NCBI RefSeq assembly: GCF_000227465.1
Contig: NC_016047.1
Coordinates: 1,317,001-1,381,000, forward strand
Reading direction: 5' to 3'
DNA length: 64,000 nt
Source of the DNA: Bacillus spizizenii TU-B-10
GTDB lineage: Bacteria > Bacillota > Bacilli > Bacillales > Bacillaceae
Under the pieces are notes generated by a model. The model made no database searches. It was not told the origin of the DNA and saw nothing but the letters and a program-made list of their open reading frames with translations. The first letter of the stretch is position 1; every line of letters begins with the position of its first letter. Positions 44,307-62,574 of this stretch are shown piece after piece. The translations under genes and the position numbers were made by a program.

Positions 44307-44400
44307 ATCTATTCCTCCTTTTCTTTTACTGTTATTAAATGAGCGAGCCTCTTACTTTGACTGAGTCATATATCTTGATGAAGCGCCCTATTTTTTATGA

Positions 44401-44721
44401 TTAATTTGAATTGTTATTATTTTGCCGTCTTTGTCTGAGCTGTTCAATTAGCTGTTCTCTGCGGCTTAGCGGTTTTGCGTTCTTTTGCTCTTGCACCGAT
44501 TCTTCTTTCTTCTTCTTTTGGTTTTCAATTAATGCTTCTGATTTAGCCTGCAAATCCTTTACCAGATTCAAGAGCATTTCTTTTTCTTCGTCTGATACTT
44601 CTTTCATTTTGTCTTTCGTAACACCATGTTTAAGAAATATATTTTGGACCAGCATTTTCGTCATCGGATCAACTTCCGGAAGCTTAGCAAGCTCTTCTTT
44701 GATTTTATCGTTGTCTGACAT
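44401..44721 (-). CDS. cotW: CotW, spore crust protein
   Basis: 106-residue hydrophilic crust protein, rich in Lys, Glu and Gln, ending in an Asn-rich [10 protein letters not shown] tail. The middle (about 30-85) is likely a long helix. Required with CotV and CotX for a normal crust. It lies 41 bases downstream of cotV in the same operon. Confidence 0.92.
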
Positions 44722-49578: not shown

Positions 49579-50001
49579 TTAGTCTTTAATCATTTGTAAG
49601 TGGGGAATGCCGGCATCGAGAAATTCTTTTTCAGAAAGCACGCGATACCCATGTTTCTTGTAAAACGGCACAGCCTGCGTTTGCGCGTTTAAAATGAAAC
49701 CGGAAGCGCCGCCGTCTGCCGCCGCTTTTTCGAGTGCCTTCATAATGATGCCGCCGACACCGGAGGAGCGGTGGCTTTTCAATACGCAAATCCGCTCTAA
49801 CTTGCCGTAGCCGTCCTTCATTCGCCATCTTCCGGCGCCGACAGGCTTTCCGCCGTCATACACGACGATATGCTCCGACTCATTTTCAAGTTCGTCAATT
49901 TCTTCTTCAGCAGGTACGTTTTGTTCTTTGACAAAGACTTCTTTTCTTACATAAAATGCATCTTTCATTTGTTCTTCATTTTTTGCGATAACTGCTTCCA
50001 A
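49579..50001 (-). CDS. yjcF: YjcF, GNAT-family acetyltransferase
   Basis: 140-residue single-domain GNAT protein. The acetyl-CoA loop is CVLKSHRSSGVGGIIMKALEKA (about 71-92; R-x-x-G-x-G/A type), preceded by GAGRWRMKDGYGKLERI and followed by NAQTQAVPFYKKHGYRV. It is most like the ElaA/YjcF group of unknown substrate. Four bases separate it from yjcG, so yjcH-yjcG-yjcF probably form one operon. Confidence 0.9.
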   Translation of the reverse strand: MEAVIAKNEEQMKDAFYVRKEVFVKEQNVPAEEEIDELENESEHIVVYDGGKPVGAGRWRMKDGYGKLERICVLKSHRSSGVGGIIMKALEKAAADGGASGFILNAQTQAVPFYKKHGYRVLSEKEFLDAGIPHLQMIKD

Positions 50002-50005
50002 ACGA

Positions 50006-50521
50006 TTATTCTCCTCCGCCTAGCAAGAAGGTTTCATATACTGTCCACGATCCGTTTTCTAGCTGGTAAAGCAAGTGGAAACGATCAACGATTTCTTCAT
50101 GCGACACTTCCTGCATTTTTAATTGTCCCAGCACATCTGAATGCTCATCGTCGGAAAGATTTTGGCCGACCGTCACATGCGGAACGAAATTATATTCCTG
50201 TTCACCAGCCAACACACCGGTGTATAACTTTTCATTGAGTGTTTTTAATTCTTCCGTCGGCTCTGCTTTGATGTAAATGACATTATTGACAGGCGCAAAT
50301 GAGCTGTATTTTGTCATTTTGAGAACGATCGGATGGGACTCCTTTGCGATGTTTCTCAGATGTGATACAAGCTGATCCGCTTTCTCCTCTTTACATTCAA
50401 ACGATGCTCTCAGCGTCAAATGGGGCGGGATCAGGGAATAGCTCGGATCATAGCGCTTTCTGTAAGAGTTCGCAAGGTCTTGGAGTTTTTTTGATGGAAA
50501 TAAAACGATTCCGTATTTCAT
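50006..50521 (-). CDS. yjcG: YjcG, 2H (LigT/CPDase-like) phosphoesterase
   Basis: 171 residues with the two H-x-T motifs of the 2H superfamily: HLTLRASF (about 34-41) and HVTVGQNL (about 115-122). Such enzymes act on 2',3'-cyclic or 2'-5' phosphates, often in RNA. Its natural substrate is unknown. It lies between yjcH and yjcF on the same strand; ribosome site GGAGGGA. Confidence 0.9.
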
Positions 50522-50557
50522 ATTATGTCCCTCCTGGAAATAAAGTATGATAGAATA

Positions 50558-51280
50558 TCAAAGCATTTTTTTCAGCGCCGGCGTGATGAGCGGCTGCCAG
50601 TATGTCCATTTGTGATCTCCGTCAAATGATTCAAAATAATAATCGGAAAGCTTCTCCTCCAGCAGCTGTTTCAGCTCCTGATTCGGTTCTGTAAAGTCCA
50701 GAATGTTTCCGTCTGTCGTGTGGACGTCAGTTTCTTTTGTTCCGATTTGGTGATAAATAGAGAGGTGTTTGATATCGTCTGACTGTTTCACAGCTCCCAA
50801 TACATGTTTGTCAACATAGGGAGACTGCATGATGATGTTTCCGAACATATTCGGATAATCAAGCGCTGTCATAAGAGAAACGGTCGCTCCGAGAGAATCA
50901 CCGATCAGCGTCCGACCGTAGCCGACTTGATAGGTTGGATACTCGTCATCCGCAAACGGAACGAGCTCATGGGCGATGAACCGTTTATACGCCGAAAATT
51001 TTGAGCCTTCCGGATGATAGGTTTTTCTGCGCTCTTTTACATCCTTATAAGGAACACCGATAATAATGCTCCGGTCTATTTCTCGCTTGGACAGCAATTC
51101 TTCGACCTGTCTGCCGATTCTCCCCAGCCTGAAATAATCGTGGCCGTCCTGCGCGATAATGACATGGTATTTATAAAGCGGGGAGTAGTTGGACGGCAGA
51201 TAAACGAGCAATGTCATTTCCTCGTTAAGCTCTTTTGAAAAGAATTTCTTTTCTTGCACTGTGCCGTTTTTCGGTGCCAT
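50558..51280 (-). CDS. yjcH: YjcH, esterase of the Fes/IroE-like (putative esterase) family
   Basis: 240-residue alpha/beta hydrolase of the esterase D/enterochelin-esterase-like family. The nucleophile elbow GDSLGATVSL (about 129-138) gives the Ser, and GDHKWTYWQP near the C-terminus holds the catalytic His. No signal peptide, so cytoplasmic. Substrate not established; siderophore esterases are the nearest named relatives. Divergent from metI. Confidence 0.88.
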   Translation of the reverse strand: MAPKNGTVQEKKFFSKELNEEMTLLVYLPSNYSPLYKYHVIIAQDGHDYFRLGRIGRQVEELLSKREIDRSIIIGVPYKDVKERRKTYHPEGSKFSAYKRFIAHELVPFADDEYPTYQVGYGRTLIGDSLGATVSLMTALDYPNMFGNIIMQSPYVDKHVLGAVKQSDDIKHLSIYHQIGTKETDVHTTDGNILDFTEPNQELKQLLEEKLSDYYFESFDGDHKWTYWQPLITPALKKML

Positions 51281-51390
51281 AATACATTCCTCCAGGACAT
51301 CACTAGACTTTCTTGCTGTTTTCCATTATTGTACCATGAATTATTAGAAATTTCTCTCTTTAAACTGTTCGGAACTCGAAGAAAAAAGTG

Positions 51391-51419
51391 TTGAAATAAA
51401 CTGCAAATTGCGCTAATAT
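51391..51419 (+). promoter_or_regulatory. metI-metC promoter
   Basis: TTGAAA (51391-51396), 17-bp spacer, TAATAT (51414-51419), about 24 bases before the SAM riboswitch. Confidence 0.75.
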
Positions 51420-51449
51420 AAAACAATCAGAAAATTGAAATCGATATTT

Positions 51450-51614
51450 CTTATCGTGAGAGGTGGAGGGACTGGCCCTTAGAAACCTCAGCAACCGGCT
51501 TGTTTTGCATTATGTGCAAAACGCCAAGGTGCTAAATCCAGCAAGCGTTTTTTATGCTTGGAAGATAAGAAGAAGCGTTAAACCCCTTCTTCTTATGAGG
51601 AAGGGGTTTTTTAT
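51450..51614 (+). promoter_or_regulatory. SAM-I riboswitch (S-box) with terminator
   Basis: P1 arms CTTATC (51450-51455) and GATAAG (51564-51569) enclose the S-box core: GAGAGGTGGAGGGACTGGCC, CTTAGAAACCTCAGCAACC, the GCAAAACGCCAAGGTGCTAAA-type block and GCTTGGAAGATAAG. The terminator AACCCCTT / AAGGGGTT with a T run (51581-51614) follows. SAM binding should switch off metI-metC. Confidence 0.97.
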
Positions 51615-51639
51615 TTTGAAAAGGGAAGGTGTCAGCTAT

Positions 51640-52761
51640 ATGTCACAGCACGTTGAAACGAAATTAGCCCAAATTGGAAACCGAAGCGACGAAGTAACGG
51701 GAACAGTGAGTCCTCCTATTTATTTATCAACAGCATACCGCCACAGAGGAATCGGAGAATCTACCGGATTTGATTATGTCCGCACAAAAAATCCGACACG
51801 CCAGCTTGTTGAGGACGCGATCGCCAGCTTAGAAAACGGAGCGAGAGGGCTTGCCTTCAGTTCGGGAATGGCTGCCATCCAAACGATTATGGCGCTGTTT
51901 AAAAGCGGAGATGAACTGATCGTTTCATCGGACCTATATGGCGGCACATACCGTCTGTTTGAAAATGAATGGAAAAAATACGGATTGACCTTTCATTACG
52001 ATGATTTCAGCGATGAGGACTGTTTACGCTCTAAGATTACGTCGAATACAAAAGCGGTGTTTGTGGAAACACCGACAAATCCGCTCATGCAGGAGGCGGA
52101 CATTGAAAAGATCGCCCGGATCACAAAAGAGTACGGTCTTCTGCTGATCGTTGATAATACATTTTATACACCGGTCTTGCAAAGGCCGCTTGAGCTGGGA
52201 GCCGACATTGTGATTCACAGTGCAACCAAGTATTTAGGCGGGCATAACGACCTGCTTGCGGGACTTGTCGTTGTAAAGGATGGGCAGCTTGGTGAGGAAA
52301 TGTTTCAACACCAAAATGCGATCGGCGCCGTCCTGCCTCCGTTTGATTCGTGGCTTCTGATGAGAGGAATGAAGACGCTGAGCCTCAGAATGCGCCAGCA
52401 TCAGGCAAACGCGCAGGAGCTTGCGGCGTTTTTAGAAGAGCAGGAAGAAATTTCTGATGTACTATATCCCGGAAAAGGCGGCATGCTGTCCTTCCGTCTG
52501 CAGAAAGAAGAGTGGGTTAACCCATTTTTAAAAGCGCTGAAGACCATTTGTTTTGCAGAAAGCCTCGGCGGGGTGGAGAGCTTTATTACATACCCTGCCA
52601 CACAGACACACATGGATATTCCTGAAGAAATCCGCATCTCAAACGGAGTCTGCAATCGTCTGCTGCGTTTTTCAGTCGGAATTGAACATGCAGAAGATTT
52701 AAAAGAAGACTTAAAACAGGCGTTATGTCAGGTCAAAGAGGGAGCTGTTTCATTTGAGTAA
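51640..52761 (+). CDS. metI: MetI, cystathionine gamma-synthase / O-acetylhomoserine thiolyase
   Basis: PLP enzyme (373 residues) joining cysteine with acetylhomoserine to make cystathionine. The Schiff-base Lys is in IHSATKYLGGHND; FVETPTNPLMQ and LAFSSGMAAIQTI are Cys/Met metabolism family blocks. The true start is the ATG at 51640 behind GGGAAGGTG; an open frame extends back into the riboswitch but has no ribosome site. Overlaps metC by eight bases. Confidence 0.96.
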   Translation: MSQHVETKLAQIGNRSDEVTGTVSPPIYLSTAYRHRGIGESTGFDYVRTKNPTRQLVEDAIASLENGARGLAFSSGMAAIQTIMALFKSGDELIVSSDLYGGTYRLFENEWKKYGLTFHYDDFSDEDCLRSKITSNTKAVFVETPTNPLMQEADIEKIARITKEYGLLLIVDNTFYTPVLQRPLELGADIVIHSATKYLGGHNDLLAGLVVVKDGQLGEEMFQHQNAIGAVLPPFDSWLLMRGMKTLSLRMRQHQANAQELAAFLEEQEEISDVLYPGKGGMLSFRLQKEEWVNPFLKALKTICFAESLGGVESFITYPATQTHMDIPEEIRISNGVCNRLLRFSVGIEHAEDLKEDLKQALCQVKEGAVSFE

Positions 52762-53926
52762 TCACAATTGGACGCTGGAAACCCAGCTCGTGCACAATCC
52801 ATTTAAAACAGATGGCACAACAGGAGCGGTTAGTGTACCGATTCAGCACGCATCAACTTTTCACCAATCTTCATTTGAAGAGTTTGGCGCGTATGATTAC
52901 AGCCGCTCAGGAACGCCGACAAGAACAGCGCTCGAAGAAACAATTGCCGCACTGGAAGGCGGAACGAGAGGATTTGCTTTCAGTTCAGGCATGGCTGCGA
53001 TCTCAACAGCATTTTTATTGCTGTCACAGGGTGATCACGTTCTTGTGACAGAAGATGTATATGGCGGAACCTTCCGCATGGTAACAGAGGTGCTGACCCG
53101 GTTTGGCATTGAGCACACGTTTGTTGATATGACGGATAGTAACGAAGTGGCGCGGAATATCAAGCCGAATACAAAGGTCATTTATATGGAGACACCGTCA
53201 AATCCGACACTTGGGATTACTGATATTAAAGCGGTTGTTCAGCTTGCAAAAGAAAACGGCTGTTTGACCTTTCTGGACAATACATTCATGACACCTGCAC
53301 TGCAGCGTCCGCTTGATCTCGGTGTGGATATTGTGCTTCACAGTGCAACAAAGTTCTTGAGCGGACACAGTGATGTGCTCTCAGGCCTGGCTGCTGTAAA
53401 GGATGAAGAGCTTGGGAAGCAGCTGTATAAGCTGCAAAACTCGTTCGGCGCCGTCCTTGGCGTGCAAGATTGCTGGCTTGTGCTGCGCGGATTAAAAACA
53501 TTGCAGGTCCGTTTAGAAAAAGCAAGTCAAACAGCTGAGCGGCTTGCGGAATTTTTCCAGAAGCATCCGGCGGTGAAGCGCGTGTATTATCCGGGGCTGG
53601 CTGATCATCCGGGCGCTGAAATCCATAAAAGCCAGTCAACGGGAGCGGGCGCCGTGCTATCTTTTGAGCTTGAAAGCAAAGAGGCCGTTAAGAAATTAGT
53701 AGAGAATGTATCACTTCCGGTCTTTGCTGTAAGCCTCGGCGCCGTGGAATCGATTTTGTCTTATCCGGCAACGATGTCTCACGCGGCAATGCCTAAGGAA
53801 GAGCGTGAAAAACGCGGCATCACAGACGGCCTGCTCCGTCTTAGCGTGGGAGTCGAACATGCAGACGATTTAGAACGTGATTTCGCACAAGCGCTGAAAG
53901 AAATTGCGCCAGTGGCGATTCGTTAA
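52754..53926 (+). CDS. metC: MetC, cystathionine beta-lyase
   Basis: PLP enzyme (390 residues, yjcJ of 168) cleaving cystathionine to homocysteine, the next step after MetI. Schiff-base Lys in LHSATKFLSGHSDVLSG; YMETPSNPTLGITDI and GFAFSSGMAAIST are family motifs. It starts at TTG 52754 inside the end of metI (GAGGGAG ribosome site), so the two are translationally coupled. Together they form the transsulfuration branch toward methionine. Confidence 0.96.
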   Translation: MSNHNWTLETQLVHNPFKTDGTTGAVSVPIQHASTFHQSSFEEFGAYDYSRSGTPTRTALEETIAALEGGTRGFAFSSGMAAISTAFLLLSQGDHVLVTEDVYGGTFRMVTEVLTRFGIEHTFVDMTDSNEVARNIKPNTKVIYMETPSNPTLGITDIKAVVQLAKENGCLTFLDNTFMTPALQRPLDLGVDIVLHSATKFLSGHSDVLSGLAAVKDEELGKQLYKLQNSFGAVLGVQDCWLVLRGLKTLQVRLEKASQTAERLAEFFQKHPAVKRVYYPGLADHPGAEIHKSQSTGAGAVLSFELESKEAVKKLVENVSLPVFAVSLGAVESILSYPATMSHAAMPKEEREKRGITDGLLRLSVGVEHADDLERDFAQALKEIAPVAIR

Positions 53927-53927
53927 A

Positions 53928-53957
53928 AAGAAGCCGGGGATGGCCCCGGCTTCTTTT
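53928..53957. terminator. metIC/yjcK terminator
   Basis: Stem AAGAAGCCGGGG / CCCCGGCTTCTT with a four-base loop and a T run after metC; it abuts the yjcK stop on the opposite strand. Confidence 0.88.
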
Positions 53958-53958
53958 G

Positions 53959-54501
53959 TTATTCATCATCAGGATTCAGAATCGCGAGGACTTGATGATC
54001 CTCCCAAACGCCGTTGATTTTCACATTTTTCCGGGCGATGCCCTCTTTATGAAATCCCGCTTTTTCCAATACACGCATGGACCCGAGATTGCGGGGCATC
54101 ACACCGGCTTCAATACGGTGCAGTTTCAATTCGTGAAACGCAAAATCAACAATCAATTTGACGGTCTCTGTCATAAGGCCCTTTCCATTATGGGCTTTGT
54201 CTAAAAAATACCCGATGAACGCAGTTTGCAGCGCCCCGCGGATGATTTGAAAGAGCGAAACCGTCCCGATTAATGTATTGTCTGACGCAGCGAAAATGCC
54301 GAAATGATACTCTTCATCTTCCTCCAGTCTTTGCTGATACTCTGCTATTCTTTTTCTTTGCCCCTCAACCGTATAGTAATCGTCTGCGCGTATCATGGAG
54401 AACTGTTCAAAGAAGTCCTGATTTTCGCTTTGCAGTCGCAGATTTTCTTCCGCATCCTTTACTTCTAAAGGTCTTACATAGATGTTTTTTCCTTTTAACA
54501 T
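53959..54501 (-). CDS. yjcK: YjcK, RimJ/RimL-type acetyltransferase
   Basis: 180-residue GNAT protein of the ribosomal-protein-alanine acetyltransferase type (Acetyltransf_3). LKGKNIYVRPLEVKDAEENL is the family start; IGYFLDKAHNGKGLMTETVKLIVDFAF-like acetyl-CoA region (about 92-115) and RNLGSMRVLEKAGFHKEG follow. Substrate may be a protein N-terminus or small amine; not known. RBS GGAGAG. Confidence 0.88.
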   Translation of the reverse strand: MLKGKNIYVRPLEVKDAEENLRLQSENQDFFEQFSMIRADDYYTVEGQRKRIAEYQQRLEEDEEYHFGIFAASDNTLIGTVSLFQIIRGALQTAFIGYFLDKAHNGKGLMTETVKLIVDFAFHELKLHRIEAGVMPRNLGSMRVLEKAGFHKEGIARKNVKINGVWEDHQVLAILNPDDE

Positions 54502-54571
54502 ATCAGTGATCTCTCCGTTCTCATGTCAGCATTCCTCTTACATTATTCTGAGGAAACTGTAAAAATCCTTT

Positions 54572-55761
54572 TTATAAGAAAGAAGAAAACCAGTTTCCCA
54601 TAAAGGTGCCGACATAGTTCCCAATTAAGTAGCCGAGCGTACCAACAAGCATGATCGGGGCGACAAGTTCCCGCCATCCCTTGGCAATTGCCATCGCAGC
54701 TGCGGTCGTAGGCCCCCCGACAGCAGCGTTGACAGCGAGCAGAATTTCTTCAAGCCGCACGCGGAACAATTTTCCGACGGCTAAGGAAACAGTTAAATTG
54801 CTAATCGCAATGATAAACACAAATAATAGAATAAAAGGCGCATTGGTAACGATTAAGCGCAGATCTGCAGGAATGCCGATCACCACAAAAAACAAATATA
54901 TCAAAAAGGTTCCAAGCTCTTGAGATCCATTAAGCCTTTCAAAAAACGAGGGAATAGAAAAATGATAAGAACAGTTAAAGACGTGAGCATCAGATACTGA
55001 TCGCCAAGCGTTCCGGTCAAAAGGGGATGAGAAAAAAGGCTTTTAAAAAAGCCGGAAATCTTCACACTAACTGCAACAAGCGCAAAAGCAGCACCGGCAT
55101 TAAAAGCGATATCCTTTAAGGAAATGTCCTTCCGTTTCCAATAGCTTTCTGCACTGTTTCCGCTCTTTCCATCGGCTTTTACTTTTTCTTCAAACGGCAT
55201 AGCATAATGCCGCTGAAACCATTTAACTGCAGGAATGCTGATTAATATAAAAAACAAAAGCGCCATCATAACATTATCAGCCACAACGGTAGCTGACACA
55301 TATTCCCCCGGTGTCTCAAATTTTGCCGCCATCGCCGCAAAATTGATCCCGCCGCCGATATAAGAGGCGCTGATCATCCCGCCGATTTTATCTAAATAAG
55401 GAATATGCTGTTTGAGTAGAAAAAAAGCAAGGATGCTGCCGAGCACAGTTCCAGCGGAGCTAATCAGAAATATAAACAGCAAACGCCTGCTTTCCTTAAA
55501 AATCTGCCGCACATTGATCTGAAACAGCAAAAGGGGAATCGCCAGGGGCACCACATAAGCCCACACAGTATCATACACAGGCGACTCAACAGGAAGCACT
55601 CCTATATTTGTAAACACCATAGCACCTAAAAGCGCAATGATAGCACCCGACACAGCGGACGCCCACTTAAAGCGCTGCTCCAGCCCGATGCTCACTGCCG
55701 CCCACACCGCAATAAATCCCCACAATACCCAAACATCATCAGAAGAAATCAAAGAATGCAA
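54572..55761 (-). pseudogene. yjcL: yjcL, DUF819 membrane protein split by a -1 frameshift
   Basis: Two overlapping minus-strand frames make up one protein of about 396 residues. Codons 1-286 (55761-54901) cover about eight hydrophobic segments and end abruptly at LMDLKSLEPF. The second frame (54904-54572, 110 residues) carries on with LIYLFFVVIGIPADL to the normal end. Reading one extra A in the AA at 54930-54931 (minus strand TTAATGG to TTAAATGG) restores LNGSQELGTFLIYLFF. DUF819 proteins are predicted carboxylate or amino acid transporters. I infer an inactivated gene, unless this is a sequencing error. Confidence 0.85.
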
Positions 55762-55856
55762 AACCCCATCACTCCTATTGTTAGAAAATTAAGACATATT
55801 ATAATAGCCGGGGAACGGAACAGCAAGTCCGAAAAAAAGTTTTTCTAAAAAAGCAG

Positions 55857-55885
55857 TTGACGAATAGAAGGGAAGGTTATATAAT
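55857..55885 (+). promoter_or_regulatory. tRNA-Val promoter
   Basis: TTGACG (55857-55862), 17-bp spacer, TATAAT (55880-55885), 50 bases before the tRNA. Confidence 0.8.
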
Positions 55886-55934
55886 AGAACTTGTCAGAAA
55901 GACAACAACATACCCAGCAACACATACATATCAT

Positions 55935-56007
55935 GATTCCGTAGCTCAGCTGGGAGAGCGCTACCTTGACAGGGTAGAGGTCGCTGGTTCGAGCCCAGTC
56001 GGAATCA
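55935..56007 (+). tRNA. tRNA-Val (GAC)
   Basis: 73-nt cloverleaf: acceptor GATTCCG / CGGAATC with discriminator A, D-arm GCTC...GAGC, anticodon stem CTACC / GGTAG with loop TTGACAG (anticodon GAC, valine), T-arm GCTGG-TTCGAGC-CCAGT-type. CCA is not encoded. It has its own promoter and terminator. Its 3' half is repeated at 58164-58212, marking it as an insertion target. Confidence 0.95.
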
Positions 56008-56009
56008 TA
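55961..56009. repeat. Left direct repeat (tRNA-Val 3' half, att-like)
   Basis: Matches 58164-58212 at 46 of 49 positions by eye; the last 45 bases match at 43. This is the typical attachment site made by tRNA-targeting integrases. Confidence 0.8.
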
Positions 56010-56013
56010 GCTT

Positions 56014-56040
56014 AAACCCTTGCACAGCAAGGGTTTTTTA
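56014..56040 (+). terminator. tRNA-Val terminator
   Basis: Perfect stem AAACCCTTGC / GCAAGGGTTT with an ACA loop and six T, right after the tRNA. Confidence 0.88.
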
Positions 56041-56129
56041 CTTTTTATAGGGGCTGTCGGTTTTATTAATGCAGTATATGATTTAAATGAAAACCTAGGA
56101 ATAATATTGAGTTGAGAAGATAAAATAAA

Positions 56130-56159
56130 AACCCCATTTCTAAAGTCCAAAATGGGGTT
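56130..56159 (-). terminator. rap-phr terminator
   Basis: Stem AACCCCATTT / AAATGGGGTT with a ten-base loop; on the minus strand a T-rich end follows, 15 bases past the phr stop. Confidence 0.8.
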
Positions 56160-56173
56160 ATTTCAATATCATA

Positions 56174-56296
56174 TTAAGTTGCTGCTCTATCTGCGACCTT
56201 ATAAGTGGACTGCTCAGAAAGAGCGTATGAAGCGCTGGATACTCCAACAATGCCAAGCAAGAGCGCTAAACAAATTGCAATTTTACATTTTTTCAT
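56174..56296 (-). CDS. Phr signalling peptide precursor (40 aa)
   Basis: Reads MKKCKIAICLALLLGIVGVS to a Sec signal, cleavage near SSASYA, then a short exported tail ending YKVADRAAT. Phr precursors of B. subtilis are about 40 residues and release a C-terminal penta- or hexapeptide with Arg near position 2, so DRAAT (or ADRAAT) is the predicted signal. The start lies inside the end of rap (14-base overlap), the usual rap-phr arrangement. After export and cleavage the peptide would be re-imported by Opp or App. Too short for many gene finders. Not one of the peptides I recall from strain 168. Confidence 0.85.
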   Translation of the reverse strand: MKKCKIAICLALLLGIVGVSSASYALSEQSTYKVADRAAT

Positions 56297-57446
56297 TTAA
56301 ATGTTTCCCCCTTTGAATTTGTTTACGTGCTTCAATTGCCATTTGATAAAAATCGACCGCATCATGTCTGTCTTCTTTGTTGGTCAAAAAATCAGCAACA
56401 GCAACAGCGTATTCTTCCATATCACCATAAAGGTTTTTCTCTTTGAAGAACTTGAACACTTCTCTAAGTGTTTGTAAGTCAAATGATAAATAAAGACCTT
56501 TAACCAGTTTTAATTTCTCGGTTACTTCCTGGTTGTTGTGTCGAGCAGCAACCTTCTGACCTTCCTGGTATAATTCTAATGCAGCCTTTACATCATTCTT
56601 CTTTGCTTTGACATATGCAAGATTAAAAATCGCTTTGGACTCATAAATGTGCTTTCGATCCTTATGAATTTCATAGGCGATTTGAAAATGTTTCTCAGCA
56701 TTGTCAAGTTCTTCAAGGTTATTATAACATAACCCCACATTAAAATGAGCTGAACCAATTAAATGTTGCTCCCCTATTTCTAGGGCATCTTTTAAAGCTT
56801 TTTCAGCTGTTTCTAAAGCATCCTCATAACACATTTTGTCTAGCCAATTCCCAAATATAACAAATTGACATTGGACCATTTCTTTGCCATATGTAAGGTT
56901 ACCCTGAGCATCTTTTTGCTCCTTAAATATAGAGTATGCTCGCTGAGCATAATTCATTGAAAAATGAGTCTCTTTCATATAGTAATAGACTTCAGACACT
57001 TTGAAATAGAACTCTGCCTTATCTGTATTTGCGTTTTCATCTAATAAATCAAGATATTTTTCTGCTTCGCGATAATATGTTAAAGCAATAACTAAATCTC
57101 TCGTTCTAAAATGATACATGCCGGTAAAAAAATTATAATAGAACTCTATTGTATTCGTGAGGGATTCAGGGGCCATATTTTCCCTTGTCTTTTTGAGATC
57201 AGAATAAACACCATCTATATTTTTAACAGAGTCAGGTTCGAGATACGACAGCATTATTTCGTGCCGTAGCTTTAATAGCTGGAGATAGACTGCTACTTTT
57301 TCATTTTTCTCCATCATATCGAATTCTTTTTCAACTTTTTGTTTCATTTCTTTTGCTTTCTCAACTCGACCCTGCTTTATGACAACATACCAATGATTAA
57401 TGTCTGTAGTTACATAATGATATGGTATTAAATCCGAAACAGACAA
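56283..57446 (-). CDS. Rap-family TPR regulator (phosphatase or anti-activator)
   Basis: 387 residues with the Rap layout: an N-terminal three-helix bundle (about 1-75, with IPYHYVTTDINHWYVVIKQG) joined to six or so TPR repeats (e.g. AHFNVGLCYNNLEELDNAEKHF and KAIFNLAYVKAKKNDVKAALE). Rap proteins dephosphorylate Spo0F or block DNA binding by response regulators such as ComA, and are inhibited by their Phr peptide. It starts at TTG 57446 behind AAAGGAGG; a TATAAT lies at 57480-57485 (minus). Which target it controls cannot be read reliably. Located in the tRNA-flanked insert. Confidence 0.9.
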   Translation of the reverse strand: MSVSDLIPYHYVTTDINHWYVVIKQGRVEKAKEMKQKVEKEFDMMEKNEKVAVYLQLLKLRHEIMLSYLEPDSVKNIDGVYSDLKKTRENMAPESLTNTIEFYYNFFTGMYHFRTRDLVIALTYYREAEKYLDLLDENANTDKAEFYFKVSEVYYYMKETHFSMNYAQRAYSIFKEQKDAQGNLTYGKEMVQCQFVIFGNWLDKMCYEDALETAEKALKDALEIGEQHLIGSAHFNVGLCYNNLEELDNAEKHFQIAYEIHKDRKHIYESKAIFNLAYVKAKKNDVKAALELYQEGQKVAARHNNQEVTEKLKLVKGLYLSFDLQTLREVFKFFKEKNLYGDMEEYAVAVADFLTNKEDRHDAVDFYQMAIEARKQIQRGKHLNEKM

Positions 57447-57727
57447 TCAAATACCTCCTTTTATTTACATATATTTAATATTATACCACCAAGGGCACAC
57501 TCTAATAGAACCATTTTTCGAAAAAACTTTCTATTCAGACTGAAATAAAGGTCAGAATAAGCATAAATAAGGACATCTGATACGGACCCTTTAGCTTGCT
57601 TTAGAATTATAGAAAGTTGGTCTAAAAGGCTCCCAATGTCGTTTAATGATTTATAAATGATATCTACATTTTTCAAGAAAATGTTATAATGAAAAGCCAT
57701 AAAATGATATGAAGAGGGGCAATTTCG
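57447..57727. other. Intergenic region between rap and the ABM-domain gene
   Basis: 281 AT-rich bases. Minus-strand TATAAT at 57480-57485 for rap; plus-strand TATAAT at about 57685-57690 for the next gene. A minus-strand frame (90 codons, 57461-57733) runs through it, but has no ribosome site and overlaps both promoters, so I do not call it a gene. Confidence 0.5.
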
Positions 57728-58009
57728 ATGCATTACATAACGGCATGCTTAAAAATCATCAGTGATAAAGACCTTAATGAAATAATGAAGGAATTCAAAA
57801 AACTTGAGGAAGAAACGAACAAAGAAGAAGGGTGTATCAAATTCCATGCTTATCCGCTTGATCCATCAGAACGTAAAATAATGCTTTGGGAGATTTGGGA
57901 AAACGAAGAAGCTGTGAAAACCCATTTCACGAAAAAACACACAAAAGACGTTCAACAACAAGAATTAACGGAAGTAGAATGGTTAATGAAAAGCAATGTG
58001 AATGATTAA
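57728..58009 (+). CDS. Small ABM-domain protein (YgiN/quinol monooxygenase-like)
   Basis: 93 residues matching the antibiotic biosynthesis monooxygenase pattern: a first strand YITACLKI, helix KEFKKLEEETNKEEGCIKFHAY, then ERKIMLWEIWENEEAVKTHF and KKHTKDVQ. This dimeric alpha-beta barrel family includes quinol and aromatic monooxygenases and haem-degrading enzymes; none can be assigned here. RBS GAGGGG ten bases before the ATG. Only cargo gene besides rap-phr in the insert. Confidence 0.78.
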   Translation: MHYITACLKIISDKDLNEIMKEFKKLEEETNKEEGCIKFHAYPLDPSERKIMLWEIWENEEAVKTHFTKKHTKDVQQQELTEVEWLMKSNVND

Positions 58010-58163
58010 AAGGCTTTTTAAAAAGAGAGATAAAGTTGGCAGTTTGTTGTCCAACTCTATCAACAATCATCCTTTTCATTCAGAAGTCATCAGATGTACA
58101 ATTCAATAGCCTTGAAGTTATAGGGCTGGTCAGAATCGAATATACTTGTTCAAAAGGCATCAA

Positions 58164-58212
58164 CTAACTTGACAGGGGAGAGGTCGCTAGTTCGAGCCCA
58201 GTCGGAATCATA
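58164..58212 (+). repeat. Right direct repeat: tRNA-Val 3' half remnant (att-like)
   Basis: Carries the anticodon stem end, T-arm and acceptor 3' strand of tRNA-Val with three differences in 49 bases, including G for T in the stem and A for G in the T-arm. It lacks the 5' half, so it cannot be a functional tRNA. With 55961-56009 it bounds the insert. Confidence 0.8.
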
Positions 58213-58214
58213 CA

Positions 58215-58254
58215 CGGCGGTTAGAAGCGTTATCACGTTTCTAGCCGTTTTTTT
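58215..58254 (+). terminator. Terminator after the tRNA remnant
   Basis: Imperfect stem CGGC..TTAGAA.CG / CG.TTCTA.GCCG followed by seven T. Its place relative to the tRNA remnant mirrors the terminator behind the intact tRNA, so it may be the original tRNA terminator displaced by the insert. Confidence 0.65.
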
Positions 58255-58391
58255 GCGTTGACTTAGTCGTATTAAGGCGGAGAATAGCGGTGGACCATTA
58301 CGTGTCTGAGCGTTTCTTATTCTATTAAATGGGAATGGGAAGCGGGTAACGTACTTGATCATAGAACACTCTAATAACATAAAAAACCTTT
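58255..58391. other. Intergenic region before manR
   Basis: Part of the gene-free stretch 58010-58525. It shows the tRNA remnant and hairpin, then about 130 bases without recognisable features, then the manR control region. Confidence 0.4.
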
Positions 58392-58462
58392 TTTCCGGAA
58401 CCTTCGGTAAAAAACGAAACTTTTGAATCTATGATTTTACGTTATAATGTAAACGGTTACAT
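58392..58462 (+). promoter_or_regulatory. manR control region: ManR-box-like site, promoter, cre
   Basis: 58392-58414 (TTTCCGGAAC...GGTAAAAAA) matches 20 of 23 bases with a site before manP at 60524-60546, so it is a likely ManR target. A TATAAT -10 box lies at 58443-58448. ATGTAAACGGTTACAT (58447-58462) fits the CcpA cre consensus exactly and overlaps the -10 box and start point, predicting glucose repression of manR. Confidence 0.82.
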
Positions 58463-58525
58463 TTATAATATACTTATACTATCTATTTGTTCAAGTGGAT
58501 ATTGACAGGAAGGATAGAAAAACAG

Positions 58526-60472
58526 ATGAAAAACATGAATACAAGGCAAAAAGAGATTTTGTATCTGTTGTTATCTGAACCTGATGACTATTTAGTTGTG
58601 CAAGATTTCGCAGACAGGGTACAGTGTTCTGAAAAAACGATCAGGAATGATTTGAAAGCGATCGAGGATTATCTGAATGAACATTCTCATGCTCAGCTCA
58701 TTCGGAAACCAGGGTTAGGCGTCTTTTTACATATAGATGAACAGGAAAGGACCTGGTTAAGCCAACAATTACATACAGAACATTTTTATTCTAGGCAGCG
58801 AACCGATGAGGAAAGAATGCTGCACATTGCTTATGACTTATTAATGAATCTAAAGCCTGTTTCTGCAAAAGAAATTGCCGCTCAGCATTTTGTTAATCGA
58901 TCTTCCATTAAAAAGGATTTATGTGCGGTAGAGGAGTGGCTGAAGCGATTTGACCTCACGCTGGTTTCGAGGCAGCGGCTTGGTTTGAAGGTTGATGGGA
59001 ACGAAAAAAATAAAAGAAAAGCATTGGCAAGAATATCTGATTTGATTGATAACACGGAGTTTACTAGCCAATTTATTAAAAGTAAGTTCTTAAGTCACGA
59101 AGTAGATTTTGTAGCGAAAGAAATCAAATCATTACAAAAAGAGCATTCGCTTTATTTCACAGATGAGACGTTTGAGAGTTTGCTGTTGCATACATTGTTC
59201 ATGATCCGCCGAATCAAAATGAAGCAGCCGATCTCGATATCTCCAAGAGAACTGGCAGCAGTAAAAAAGAAGAAAGAATATCAATGGACATTTGCTTGTT
59301 TACAACGGCTTGAACCGGTTTTTGCAATCCGCTTTCCTGAAGAAGAGGCCGTGTATTTGACATTACATATATTGGGCGGGAAAGTTCGTTATCCATTACA
59401 GAAAGAAGAAAACCTTGAAAATGCAGTGCTTCCAAAGGTTGTAATGCATTTAATCAACCGTGTTTCAGAGCTGAAAATGCTGGATTTTCATAAAGATCAG
59501 GATTTGATCAACGGATTGAATATTCATCTCAATACAGTGTTACAGCGGCTGAGCTACGATCTTTCTGTATCAAATCCTATGCTTAATGACATCAAAAAGA
59601 TGTACCCTTATTTGTTTCATCTGATCATTGACGTTCTGGAAGACATCAATCAAACGTTTGATCTTCATATCCCTGAGGAAGAGGCAGCATATTTAACGCT
59701 GCATTTTCAGGCAGCAATCGAACGGCTGCATCACAGCAGTGATACACATAAAAAGGCGATCATCGTTTGTCACATGGGTATTGGGATGTCACAATTGCTG
59801 CGGACAAAAATTGAACGGAAATGTCATCAAATCGCTGTAATGGCCTGTATCGCAAAAGCCGATTTAAAGGACTTCATAAAACAGCATGAGGATATCGATC
59901 TTGTCATTTCAACCATAGCTCTGGAAAATATAACGATCCCATATATTGTTGTATCTCCGCTTTTGGAGCCTTCAGATGAGAAGGAATTACTTGCATTTGT
60001 GCATCAGCTTGATAAACCACAGCGCCAAAAACAAAAAACCTTTCAGATGCTGAACAATACGACTCCTTTTTTGGTTTTTTTACAGCAAGAGGCAGAGCAC
60101 CGCTATAAGGTAATTGAACAGCTGGCGACAGCTTTGTTTGAGAAAGGCTATGTTGAAAAGGAATACGCGGTTCATGCGGTTATGAGGGAAAAAATGGCGG
60201 CGACAAACATTGGGGCAGGCATAGCCATTCCTCATGCGAACGCTAAATATATCAAACAATCAGCAATCGCAATTGCCACATTAAAAGAGCCGCTTGATTG
60301 GGGAAATGAGAAAGTATCGCTTGTTTTTATGCTGGCTGTCAAACACGAGGATCAAAATATGACAAAGCAGCTGTTTCGTGAGCTTTCATACCTGAGTGAG
60401 CAGCCGGCCTTCGTGCAGAAGCTGACGAAAGAAACAAACGTCATGACATTTTTATCTTATTTGGATTATTAA
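58526..60472 (+). CDS. manR: ManR, PRD-containing activator of the mannose operon
   Basis: 648 residues from the ATG at 58526. Two N-terminal HTH domains (about 1-170), PRD1 and PRD2 (about 180-400, with HIL and LHF histidine motifs), an EIIB-like domain with Cys415 (CHMGIGMSQLL) and an EIIA-like domain with His570 (IPHANAK). Cys415 and His570 carry the published numbering, which supports the start. It senses mannose through phosphorylation by ManP and HPr. An in-frame start at 58487 lies before the GGAAGGAT ribosome site. Regulates itself and manP. Confidence 0.95.
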   Translation: MKNMNTRQKEILYLLLSEPDDYLVVQDFADRVQCSEKTIRNDLKAIEDYLNEHSHAQLIRKPGLGVFLHIDEQERTWLSQQLHTEHFYSRQRTDEERMLHIAYDLLMNLKPVSAKEIAAQHFVNRSSIKKDLCAVEEWLKRFDLTLVSRQRLGLKVDGNEKNKRKALARISDLIDNTEFTSQFIKSKFLSHEVDFVAKEIKSLQKEHSLYFTDETFESLLLHTLFMIRRIKMKQPISISPRELAAVKKKKEYQWTFACLQRLEPVFAIRFPEEEAVYLTLHILGGKVRYPLQKEENLENAVLPKVVMHLINRVSELKMLDFHKDQDLINGLNIHLNTVLQRLSYDLSVSNPMLNDIKKMYPYLFHLIIDVLEDINQTFDLHIPEEEAAYLTLHFQAAIERLHHSSDTHKKAIIVCHMGIGMSQLLRTKIERKCHQIAVMACIAKADLKDFIKQHEDIDLVISTIALENITIPYIVVSPLLEPSDEKELLAFVHQLDKPQRQKQKTFQMLNNTTPFLVFLQQEAEHRYKVIEQLATALFEKGYVEKEYAVHAVMREKMAATNIGAGIAIPHANAKYIKQSAIAIATLKEPLDWGNEKVSLVFMLAVKHEDQNMTKQLFRELSYLSEQPAFVQKLTKETNVMTFLSYLDY

Positions 60473-60523
60473 AAGCAGGGAGGCATTCCTTGCTTTTTTT
60501 GTTTATAGGGAAAAATGCCGTTA

Positions 60524-60546
60524 TTTCCGGAACTTATGGTAAAAAA
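60524..60546 (+). promoter_or_regulatory. ManR-box-like site upstream of manP
   Basis: Second copy of the TTTCCGGAAC...GGTAAAAAA site, 98 bases before the manP start. A TATACA -10 candidate lies near 60574 without a good -35, as expected for an activator-dependent promoter. Confidence 0.78.
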
Positions 60547-60621
60547 AGCGATTTTAACGGCATGATTTCGGTATACAGTTGAGACAAGATCTTGTTATTC
60601 ACACTTTAAAGGAGGTTTCGT

Positions 60622-62574
60622 ATGAAACTGTTAGCGATTACATCTTGTCCGAACGGAATTGCCCATACGTATATGGCAGCGGAAAATCTGCAAAAAGCAG
60701 CTGACAGATTAGGCGTTAGCATCAAGGTTGAGACCCAGGGCGGAGTCGGGGTAGAAAATGAGCTAACCGCAGAGGAAATTCAGGAAGCGGACGCGATCAT
60801 TATTGCGGCAGACCGCTCGGTAAACAAAGATCGATTTATAGGCAAAAAACTGCTGTCTGTCGGGGTTCAGGACGGCATTCGTAAACCGGAAGAATTGATT
60901 CAAAAAGCACTTAGCGGGGATATACCGGTCTATCGTTCCGCTTCAAAATCGGAATCCGGTAATCATCAGGAGAAGAAACAAAATCCGATTTACCGTCATT
61001 TAATGAACGGCGTTTCATTTATGGTTCCTTTTATTGTTGTCGGCGGATTATTGATAGCGGTTGCATTAACGCTTGGGGGCGAGAAAACACCTAAAGGCTT
61101 AGTTATTCCGGATGATTCCTTCTGGAAAACGATTGAACAGATCGGCAGTGCTTCATTTTCATTTATGATTCCGATTTTAGCCGGCTATATCGCATATAGC
61201 ATCGCTGATAAGCCGGGGCTTGTGCCAGGGATGATCGGCGGATATATTGCAGCGACTGGAAGTTTTTATGACAGCGCAAGCGGCGCCGGTTTCCTCGGTG
61301 GAATCATTGCCGGATTTTTGGCTGGCTATGCTGCACTTGGGATAAAAAAATTAAAAGTGCCAAAAGCAATCCAACCGATCATGCCAATTATTATCATTCC
61401 GGTGTTTGCATCACTGATTGTAGGTTTAGCGTTTGTGTTTTTGATCGGCGCACCTGTAGCTCAAATTTTCACATCTTTAACGGTTTGGCTGGCGGGGATG
61501 AAAGGATCGAGCTCGATCCTTCTGGCACTGATTTTAGGCGCGATGATCTCATTTGATATGGGCGGTCCCGTAAACAAGGTGGCATTTCTGTTTGGATCGG
61601 CCATGATTGGAGAAGGAAATTATGAAATTATGGGGCCAATTGCCGTCTCCATTTGTATTCCGCCGATTGGCCTTGGAATTGCAACGTTTTTTGGAAAAAG
61701 AAAATTCGAGGCGTCACAAAGAGAAATGGGGAAAGCGGCATTTACGATGGGGCTCTTTGGCATCACTGAAGGAGCCATTCCATTTGCGGCACAGGATCCT
61801 CTTCGAGTCATTCCCAGTATTATGGCAGGTTCTATGACGGGTTCTGTGATAGCGATGATTGGCAATGTGGGAGACAGAGTAGCGCACGGCGGGCCTATCG
61901 TTGCAGTGCTTGGTGCAGTTGATCATGTCTTGATGTTTTTTATTGCTGTATTGGCGGGATCTCTGGTCACTGCTCTGTTCGTCAATGTACTAAAAAAGGA
62001 TATTACGGCGGCGTCCCCTGTGCTCAGCGAAGCGGCACCCCCAAGTGAAGCTGCTGCAGCAAAAGAAATACCGCAGCAGATTCAAGCCGAAAGCCAAAAA
62101 GCTGAGATGACGGAAATCAAAAAACTGACAGACATCATCAGCCCCGAGCTGATTGAACCACATTTATCAGGGGAAACCAGGGATGACATTATTGATGAAA
62201 TGATTCAAACATTGTCCCGCAAAGGTATGCTGCTGTCCGAGAGCGGGTTTAAACAAGCCATTTTGAATCGTGAACAACAGGGAACAACGGCGATTGGCAT
62301 GAATATCGCAATTCCGCACGGGAAATCTGAGGCGGTCAGGAAGCCGAGTGTTGCCTTTGGAATCAAACGATCAGGTGTTGACTGGAACAGCCTGGATGGA
62401 TCAGATGCAAAATTAATCTTTATGATTGCTGTACCGAAAGAGAGCGGAGGGAACCAGCATCTGAAAATATTGCAGATGTTATCCCGAAAACTAATGGATG
62501 ATAGCTATAGGAAGCAGCTGCTCTCCGTGCAAACAAAAGAAGAAGTATACAAGCTACTGGATGAAATCGTGTAA
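60622..62574 (+). CDS. manP: ManP, mannose-specific PTS enzyme IIBCA
   Basis: Imports and phosphorylates mannose. 650 residues with order IIB-IIC-IIA: IIB (1-100) with active-site Cys9 in TSCPNGIAHT; IIC membrane part (about 125-460) with about nine hydrophobic segments; an Ala/Glu-rich linker; and IIA (about 500-650) with His566 in IPHGKSEA. Fructose/mannitol PTS family. RBS AAAGGAGG. Followed by manA after 15 bases; induced by ManR. Confidence 0.96.
   Translation: MKLLAITSCPNGIAHTYMAAENLQKAADRLGVSIKVETQGGVGVENELTAEEIQEADAIIIAADRSVNKDRFIGKKLLSVGVQDGIRKPEELIQKALSGDIPVYRSASKSESGNHQEKKQNPIYRHLMNGVSFMVPFIVVGGLLIAVALTLGGEKTPKGLVIPDDSFWKTIEQIGSASFSFMIPILAGYIAYSIADKPGLVPGMIGGYIAATGSFYDSASGAGFLGGIIAGFLAGYAALGIKKLKVPKAIQPIMPIIIIPVFASLIVGLAFVFLIGAPVAQIFTSLTVWLAGMKGSSSILLALILGAMISFDMGGPVNKVAFLFGSAMIGEGNYEIMGPIAVSICIPPIGLGIATFFGKRKFEASQREMGKAAFTMGLFGITEGAIPFAAQDPLRVIPSIMAGSMTGSVIAMIGNVGDRVAHGGPIVAVLGAVDHVLMFFIAVLAGSLVTALFVNVLKKDITAASPVLSEAAPPSEAAAAKEIPQQIQAESQKAEMTEIKKLTDIISPELIEPHLSGETRDDIIDEMIQTLSRKGMLLSESGFKQAILNREQQGTTAIGMNIAIPHGKSEAVRKPSVAFGIKRSGVDWNSLDGSDAKLIFMIAVPKESGGNQHLKILQMLSRKLMDDSYRKQLLSVQTKEEVYKLLDEIV

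Follow-up and report, generated by a model that had tools for sequence, protein, structure and literature searches.

A pBS32-like rapP-phrP fragment in a probable layered scar at tRNA-Val of Bacillus spizizenii TU-B-10

The tRNA-Val gene of Bacillus spizizenii TU-B-10 is followed by a short variable stretch that carries a Rap-Phr quorum-sensing pair, within a window of 64,000 nucleotides (NC_016047.1, positions 1,317,001 to 1,381,000 of the forward strand; window coordinates are used below) that we have analysed. An earlier note, made from the sequence alone, described this stretch as a small insert at the tRNA. We find that its parts are homologous to pBS32-type plasmids, to a family of tRNA-Val elements carrying LXG toxin genes, and to the attachment region of phage KLEB27-1; that it retains stubs of two plasmid genes, at a junction common with relatives; and that the integrases of both element families are absent from the locus. 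Most probably the site is a layered scar, in which the remains of two decayed, stacked elements stand together with a captured rapP-phrP fragment of a pBS32-like replicon. We read the locus, from its sequence, as what would be a fossil island with living cargo. The features are collected in Table 1.

Three genes lie between the two copies of the tRNA 3' half: rap (387 amino acids), phr (40 amino acids) and a gene for an ABM-domain protein (93 amino acids). The N-terminal domain of Rap is recognized (PF18801, E 2.7e-16), and the Phr product has no family match in the domain search. The nearest known system is RapP-PhrP of the pBS32/pLS32-type plasmids of B. subtilis, in which a 387-residue Rap likewise overlaps phr, and the same short flanks are found. 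The window Rap has 98.7% amino acid identity to pBS32 RapP, all 40 residues of Phr are identical to PhrP, and the rap-phr DNA is 95.6-96.4% identical to six plasmid copies. Unlike these, the window copy is chromosomal, beside tRNA-Val, and its plasmid neighbour genes are cut to stubs.

It is the limits of this homology that reveal its origin. Window positions 56054-57664 match pBS32-type plasmids with 92.8-93.7% identity among the matches listed, and the match ends inside a gene on both sides, about 23 codons before the end of a 279-amino-acid gene and about 25 before that of a 106-amino-acid gene. Each stub was compared with 100 shuffles in eight chromosomal stretches. The left stub scored above the shuffles in the window, L037, L035 and L188 (genome G005) and not in L034, L166, L036 and L033; the right stub did so in the window, L037, L034, L035 and L166 and not in L188, L036 and L033. 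Both genes are full-length in all 36 matching plasmid records. Among 44 Bacillus genomes, the comparison set used throughout (G000 being the window's own genome), the only trace of the 106-amino-acid gene is a stub in each of G000, G033 and G036, and the sole match of the 279-amino-acid gene is a 48% homologue in G011; neither gene matched in the phage collection. Since the breakpoints of the chromosomal rap-phr block fall within the plasmid genes on either side, leaving a 3' stub of each, we conclude that it is a fragment of a pBS32-like replicon. The junction between terminator and stub is identical in kind in the window, L037, copy 2 of L035 and G005. Rap is present in 34 of the plasmid records, the two of 36 without a rap match being CP045822 (NZ_CP045822) and OX419571 (NZ_OX419571). 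In the latter (L194) a deletion has removed rap-phr except for the final phr codons, which stand at its junction, so that rap is old on that plasmid. As a separate observation, the pBS32-type plasmid L197 (NZ_CP147493) has rap-phr 98.6% identical to that of pBS32 beside a phr-adjoining gene that is only 59.5% identical, a sign of local replacement.

The tRNA itself is the only complete tRNA-Val called at the locus. The earlier note had described a 49-base direct repeat of its 3' half around rap, phr and the ABM gene, each copy followed by a hairpin, and we confirmed its coordinates and its 46/49 matching positions (94% identity; spacing 2203). Copy 2 differs at three positions, lacks the tRNA 5' half and is not called as a tRNA. 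The repeat is not due to chance, because copy 2 runs on into sequence homologous to a phage attP. A direct repeat of the tRNA 3' end together with an intact proximal tRNA is the arrangement of a tRNA island, and the core copies are more widely spaced in relatives: 17 kb in G015, about 66 kb in G009 and 18 kb in G005. Both hairpins end in a T run and are more stable than expected (copy 1, 56010-56047, -13.7 kcal/mol, z -4.4; copy 2, 58213-58262, -20.8 kcal/mol, z -5.6), none of 200 shuffles folding equally well in either case.

The two hairpins have different relatives. When the tRNA plus 36 bp was searched for in the 44 genomes, the match ran from the tRNA start to the end, or near the end, of the copy-1-type terminator in 28; 14 further genomes matched in the full tRNA only, G038 had partial copies only and G041 had no match. 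Ten of the 44 gave more than one match, and in L157 (G008), L155 (G025) and L154 (G001) several tRNA-Val copies are each followed by a similar terminator. The same terminator is present in elements of the LXG-carrying family (L164, L171), so that the window's may be the host's own or may have been brought by an insert.

The hairpin after copy 2 belongs to a phage. In KLEB27-1 (vB_BauS_KLEB27-1, OM654379) a 47-bp core, a hairpin and GACTTA repeats directly precede the integrase. Among the best 20 of 179 phage matches, those other than KLEB27-1, from phages of Mycobacterium, Listeria and elsewhere, cover the tRNA portion of the query. Core copy 2 with its right flank was used as query against the genus. 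Four genomes have the flank immediately behind a complete tRNA: G015, with 82% identity over 181 query bases, and G009, G034 and G013. G030 shows it weakly, and in G036 it adjoins core 2. In G015, G009 and G034 the arm is followed, as the next gene found, by an integrase with 52-86% identity to the KLEB27-1 enzyme (integrase 1, system 1); in G013, as a parallel to the window, only the first 32 integrase codons match. The arm stands after a core and before an integrase in G009, G015, G034, KLEB27-1 and the 48-kb virus contig G048, and before an integrase fragment in G013. The window arm aligns up to some ten bases before the G015 integrase start and then diverges. At the far core of G009 (about 66 kb away; only the two ends were compared) and that of G015 (17 kb), a phage-type left arm comes before the core and the usual terminator after it, followed in G015 by a remnant of the second integrase described below. 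The window has the core, the right arm with its terminator and the GACTTAG repeat in common with KLEB27-1 and the related tRNA-Val prophages, whereas their integrase and left arm are absent from it. The hairpin at 58215 had been taken for the host's old terminator, displaced by the insert. We reject this view, because the same type occurs as a phage attachment arm before an integrase; and a tRNA-Val followed directly by such a hairpin, once expected to mark an empty site, is found in G009, G013, G015 and G034 as the integrase end of a prophage or as the scar of one. No phage structural or replication gene was recognized between the tRNA and manR.

Left of core 2 we find traces of the second family (system 2). 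The left arms of partial cores are of two types, GACTTA-repeat arms of the phage (type A) and another (type B), where an LXG gene mostly lies on the arm's side of the core, with YolD where scanned (L147, L035). The window arm groups with type B: it is 92.7% identical to L034, 73.7% over 132 bp to L061 (E 2e-18), and it matches ten more sequences, from eight distinct loci, at 72-79% over stretches of about 58-83 bp. In L164 (G038) and L171 (G016), integrase 2 (399 amino acids) lies behind the core and usual terminator and is oriented towards the tRNA, and fragments of it occupy the equivalent place in L147 (G015), L165 (G038) and L167 (G003). G005 has a relative of 391 amino acids behind a different terminator, and both integrase types are present close to a core in L061 (G052). 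The order of parts is best seen in G048, where integrase 2 (16-1212) and the LXG gene (about 40.2-42.0 kb) are followed by a type-B arm, a core (44,356-44,404), the phage arm and integrase 1, ending at about 45.6 kb; integrase 2 and the part from LXG to integrase 1 are about 39 kb apart on one contig, and the whole order spans 45 kb. From this order, type B marks the distal end of system-2 elements, and a system-1 element stands behind it. The window would keep, as scars, the order seen in G048, system 2 and then system 1; in G015 the stacking is reversed, with system 1 adjoining the tRNA. A tRNA-Val core and a type-B arm are what the window has in common with LXG-carrying system-2 elements (L035, G015, G048), whose LXG gene and integrase 2 are absent from it.

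The remaining piece is the ABM block. Its protein, annotated as a putative quinol monooxygenase, is 95.7% identical in G007, 1.1 kb behind the tRNA-Val of that genome, where ManR is only 73% identical; and six plasmid records, one from B. velezensis and five from Priestia, encode it with 84-94% identity. To judge from this distribution, the ABM gene seems to be mobile in its own right. No ABM gene was found in the 29 phage records behind core matches, a search made without a positive control and so a weak negative. Rap-phr as a passenger of KLEB27-1-type phages was considered and rejected, since only two of the 29 core-match records carry a Rap (E <= 0.001), 35% and 26% identical.

The neighbouring genes allowed the interval to be compared across relatives. 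The names manR and yjcL are those of the earlier note, and we take the upstream DUF819 gene to be yjcL; the product of manR has PRD and EIIA domains. ManR was matched in 22 of the 44 genomes (E <= 1e-100), and the DNA upstream of manR was compared for 20 of the 21 others besides the window's, G037 (a 7.2-kb contig) being left out. The order yjcL, tRNA-Val, variable DNA, manR was found in five of these 20, giving six loci with the window; in the other 15, about 16 kb upstream of manR had no yjcL or tRNA match (E 1e-3). Common to all six are the tRNA, with roughly 35 bp of its terminator, and a second block that starts near 58361, some 165 bp short of manR, and extends into that gene. Between these flanks the window has phr-rap, ABM, core 2 and the phage arm; L034 (G036) has an LXG gene and others, followed by phr-rap, ABM, core 2 and the arm; L035 (G033) has an LXG gene and others, a second core of a different kind with its terminator, and phr-rap; L037 (G039) has phr-rap and ABM, a second core not being found; and L033 (G011) has other DNA and ABM. 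L036 (G035) has the flanks and ABM gene of the window, but lacks rap-phr and carries about 5 kb of other DNA, with an amidase-domain gene and others before ABM, and a short-chain dehydrogenase and Big_2 genes after it. Rap-phr is thus present in 4/6 loci, ABM in 5/6, and core 2 with the phage arm in 2/6, and none of the six has an empty attachment site. The suggestion of a variable locus is therefore upheld, and the pattern expected of an old duplication, with the same genes and both half-copies in all relatives, is not what these loci show. Insertion at tRNA-Val is likewise supported by the intact tRNA with its half-copy and by larger, integrase-bearing elements at the same tRNA in relatives. 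The idea of a single inserted unit fails, three pieces being found instead: rap-phr with its plasmid-gene stubs, the ABM block, and an end that belonged to another element. Across the genus the tRNA-Val gene is a hotspot of accretion, with repeated insertion of phages and of elements that carry toxin genes.

In the history that we propose, a KLEB27-1-like prophage of system 1, its integrase pointing away from the tRNA, would once have lain right of core 2, its integrase-proximal arm and terminator surviving. A system-2 element would have lain between the tRNA half-copies, left of core 2, with its integrase beside the core and usual terminator and pointing to the tRNA, an LXG toxin gene near its far end, and the type-B arm, which alone survives. 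A pBS32-like plasmid-prophage fragment with rapP-phrP, broken in both neighbour genes, would have been joined behind the tRNA terminator, next to ABM, by illegitimate or homologous recombination, perhaps through natural competence. We infer that both integrases were lost by deletion, and the order of events likewise. Several points weigh against this history. No intermediate of the window lineage was found, and neither an integrase-2 remnant (window 50001-62000) nor an LXG remnant is present in the window itself; the type-B match beyond L034 is modest, and the reading of G048 covers its integrase-2 end and the part from LXG onwards. The left stub is absent from L034 and L166 and the right stub from G005, and the first terminator could belong either to the host or to a former system-2 arm. 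The rap-phr of L035 is 98.6% identical to that of pBS32, yet 95.8% to that of the window, and plasmid and chromosomal copies are interleaved in the rap-phr tree, which makes later exchange likely and leaves a single capture unproved. Finally, the set holds a single genome per species, so that strain-to-strain variation stays out of view.

The closeness of the L035 rap-phr to that of pBS32, in spite of its place in the chromosomal junction, is what exchange between copies would give, and rap-phr might have spread here solely by homologous recombination in competent cells, through conserved flanks (tRNA and terminator on one side, ABM or manR on the other), the tRNA repeats being incidental. The outer flanks are indeed conserved in six of six loci, but this reading accounts neither for how the plasmid fragment first arrived nor for the phage arm and the type-B end that surround core 2; we hold it possible, though doubtful, as a full account, and it can be compatible with the layered scar as the later history of the site. 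The direct core repeats and the want of an integrase among the insert's genes might instead suggest that the 2.2 kb of core, terminator, phr-rap and ABM is one present-day cassette, moved in trans between cores by a phage integrase. Systems 1 and 2 do occur in either order (G015 has system 1 adjoining the tRNA, and in G048 system 2 comes first), and the junction of core, terminator and rap lies straight behind the complete tRNA in the window and L037, and behind a partial core in L035 and G005. We nevertheless find such a cassette improbable: core 2 has three mismatches and is more degraded still in L034, no GACTTA-type arm lies left of core 2, the block is composite, and the best relatives of integrases 1 and 2 in the window's genome are only 30% and 35% identical. 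Neither integrase has a match in window 50001-62000 (1e-8 and 1e-4), and present-day mobility is unsupported; of the two fates offered earlier for an insert without an integrase, a remnant or an element mobilized in trans, the remnant is the one supported.

A transfer in the opposite direction, the plasmid having acquired rap-phr from the chromosome, seems to us very improbable. The rap-phr tree is so weakly rooted that its root was not used for the direction of transfer, and the chromosomal copies show no less diversity than the plasmid copies compared; but on the chromosome the two flanking genes survive only as 3' stubs, while all 36 matching plasmid records have them full-length, including the two without a rap match, and the phr codons left in L194 show rap to be old there. 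A broader view, which we regard as speculative and rather unlikely, would make tRNA-Val in Bacillus a stackable array of social-behaviour cargo (Rap-Phr, LXG toxins, ABM) bounded by half-copies, gained, lost and reordered by integrases of two competing families, much of it now without an integrase, with pBS32 supplying and exchanging the quorum-sensing module.

Returning to the layered scar, its cargo may well be functional. RapP of the NCIB 3610 plasmid has Thr236 and is insensitive to PhrP, whereas Asn236 is the responsive residue, according to the parts of the two reports consulted (PMC6123732, PMC12935306). The window RapP has Asn at this position, as do the five pBS32-type plasmid copies compared besides that of NCIB 3610, and so should respond to PhrP, unlike NCIB 3610 RapP; the pair is probably PhrP-responsive. 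By homology to published RapP, the window protein would act as a brake on Spo0F and ComA until PhrP builds up. The ratio of non-synonymous to synonymous substitution is 0.02-0.08 over 21 pairs of seven rap genes (four chromosomal and three plasmid; the set excludes three more plasmid copies and the L037 gene, which is shorter by two codons) and 0.02-0.06 in pairs with the window, values that indicate that rap is conserved under purifying selection. Rap was found at E <= 1e-170 in five of the 44 genomes (G000, G033, G036, G038, G039), and G005 has a broken rap remnant with phr. Close Rap relatives were also observed among viral contigs (L202, L203).

Among 370 complete B. subtilis genomes, 38 strains have been reported with intact rapP-phrP, 23 on pBS32 and the others chromosomal; the passages covered name no site for the chromosomal copies, and the main text does not contain the word "tRNA" (PMC12935306). 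Prophages inside tRNA-Val of B. subtilis are mentioned in the consulted part of another report (PMC8951512). In the literature searched, as far as its texts were covered, we met no report of rapP at a tRNA-Val hotspot, of the plasmid-gene stubs or of two integrase systems. One chromosomal rapP-phrP copy is now placed at a definite attachment hotspot, used also by phages and LXG toxin elements, with a pBS32-like origin readable from two truncated genes. It provides a concrete case of a mobile quorum-sensing module settling in a chromosome, and the locus is worth typing to understand why strains differ in RapP.

Table 1. Features at the tRNA-Val locus, in window coordinates
Feature	Position	Strand	Basis
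tRNA-Val (GAC), intact, attachment gene	55934..56008	+	tRNA call; Rfam 63.2 bits
Core copy 1, tRNA 3' half	55961..56009	+	repeat search; 47 nt identical in KLEB27-1
Terminator usual after tRNA-Val in the genus	56010..56045	+	genus comparison, hairpin; also in system-2 elements
Stub, last ~23 codons of 279-amino-acid pBS32-type plasmid gene	56054..56123	+	59/70 identical, score 46 against shuffle maximum 20
Hairpin downstream of phr, common to pBS32	56130..56160	-	folding, plasmid comparison
phrP, 40 amino acids, product identical to that of pBS32	56174..56296	-	ORF list, protein comparison
rapP, 387 amino acids, Asn236	56283..57446	-	RapH_N and TPR domains; comparison with plasmid copies
Stub, last ~25 codons of 106-amino-acid pBS32-type plasmid gene	57591..57664	-	68/74 identical, score 60 against shuffle maximum 20
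ABM block, gene 57728-58009	57668..58031	+	domain search; common to four of five relatives at the locus
Type-B arm, end of second tRNA-Val element family	58029..58163	+	identity to L034, L061 and eight further loci
Core copy 2, partial tRNA	58164..58212	+	repeat search
Integrase-proximal arm of KLEB27-1-like phage: terminator and GACTTAG repeat	58213..58344	+	phage and prophage alignment; integrase lost
manR, right chromosomal neighbour	58526..60472	+	domain search, comparison with relatives

Some further observations concern the surroundings. The gene taken as yjcL (54572-55770) is broken into two reading frames in the window and is a single open frame of 405 codons in the five relatives (L033-L037). 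Elsewhere in the same genome, a remnant of an integrase gene with a stop adjoins a tRNA-Ala (GGC) (L220, G000:C1:3135105-3135440), a decayed tRNA-associated element. Two stretches of 4,146 bp, about 60 kb apart (L218 and L219, G000:C1:164645-168790 and 225122-229267), are 100% identical and each hold a tyrosine integrase adjoining a tRNA-Asn/tRNA-Thr pair, which may reflect a large duplication, a pair of twin elements or an artefact of assembly.

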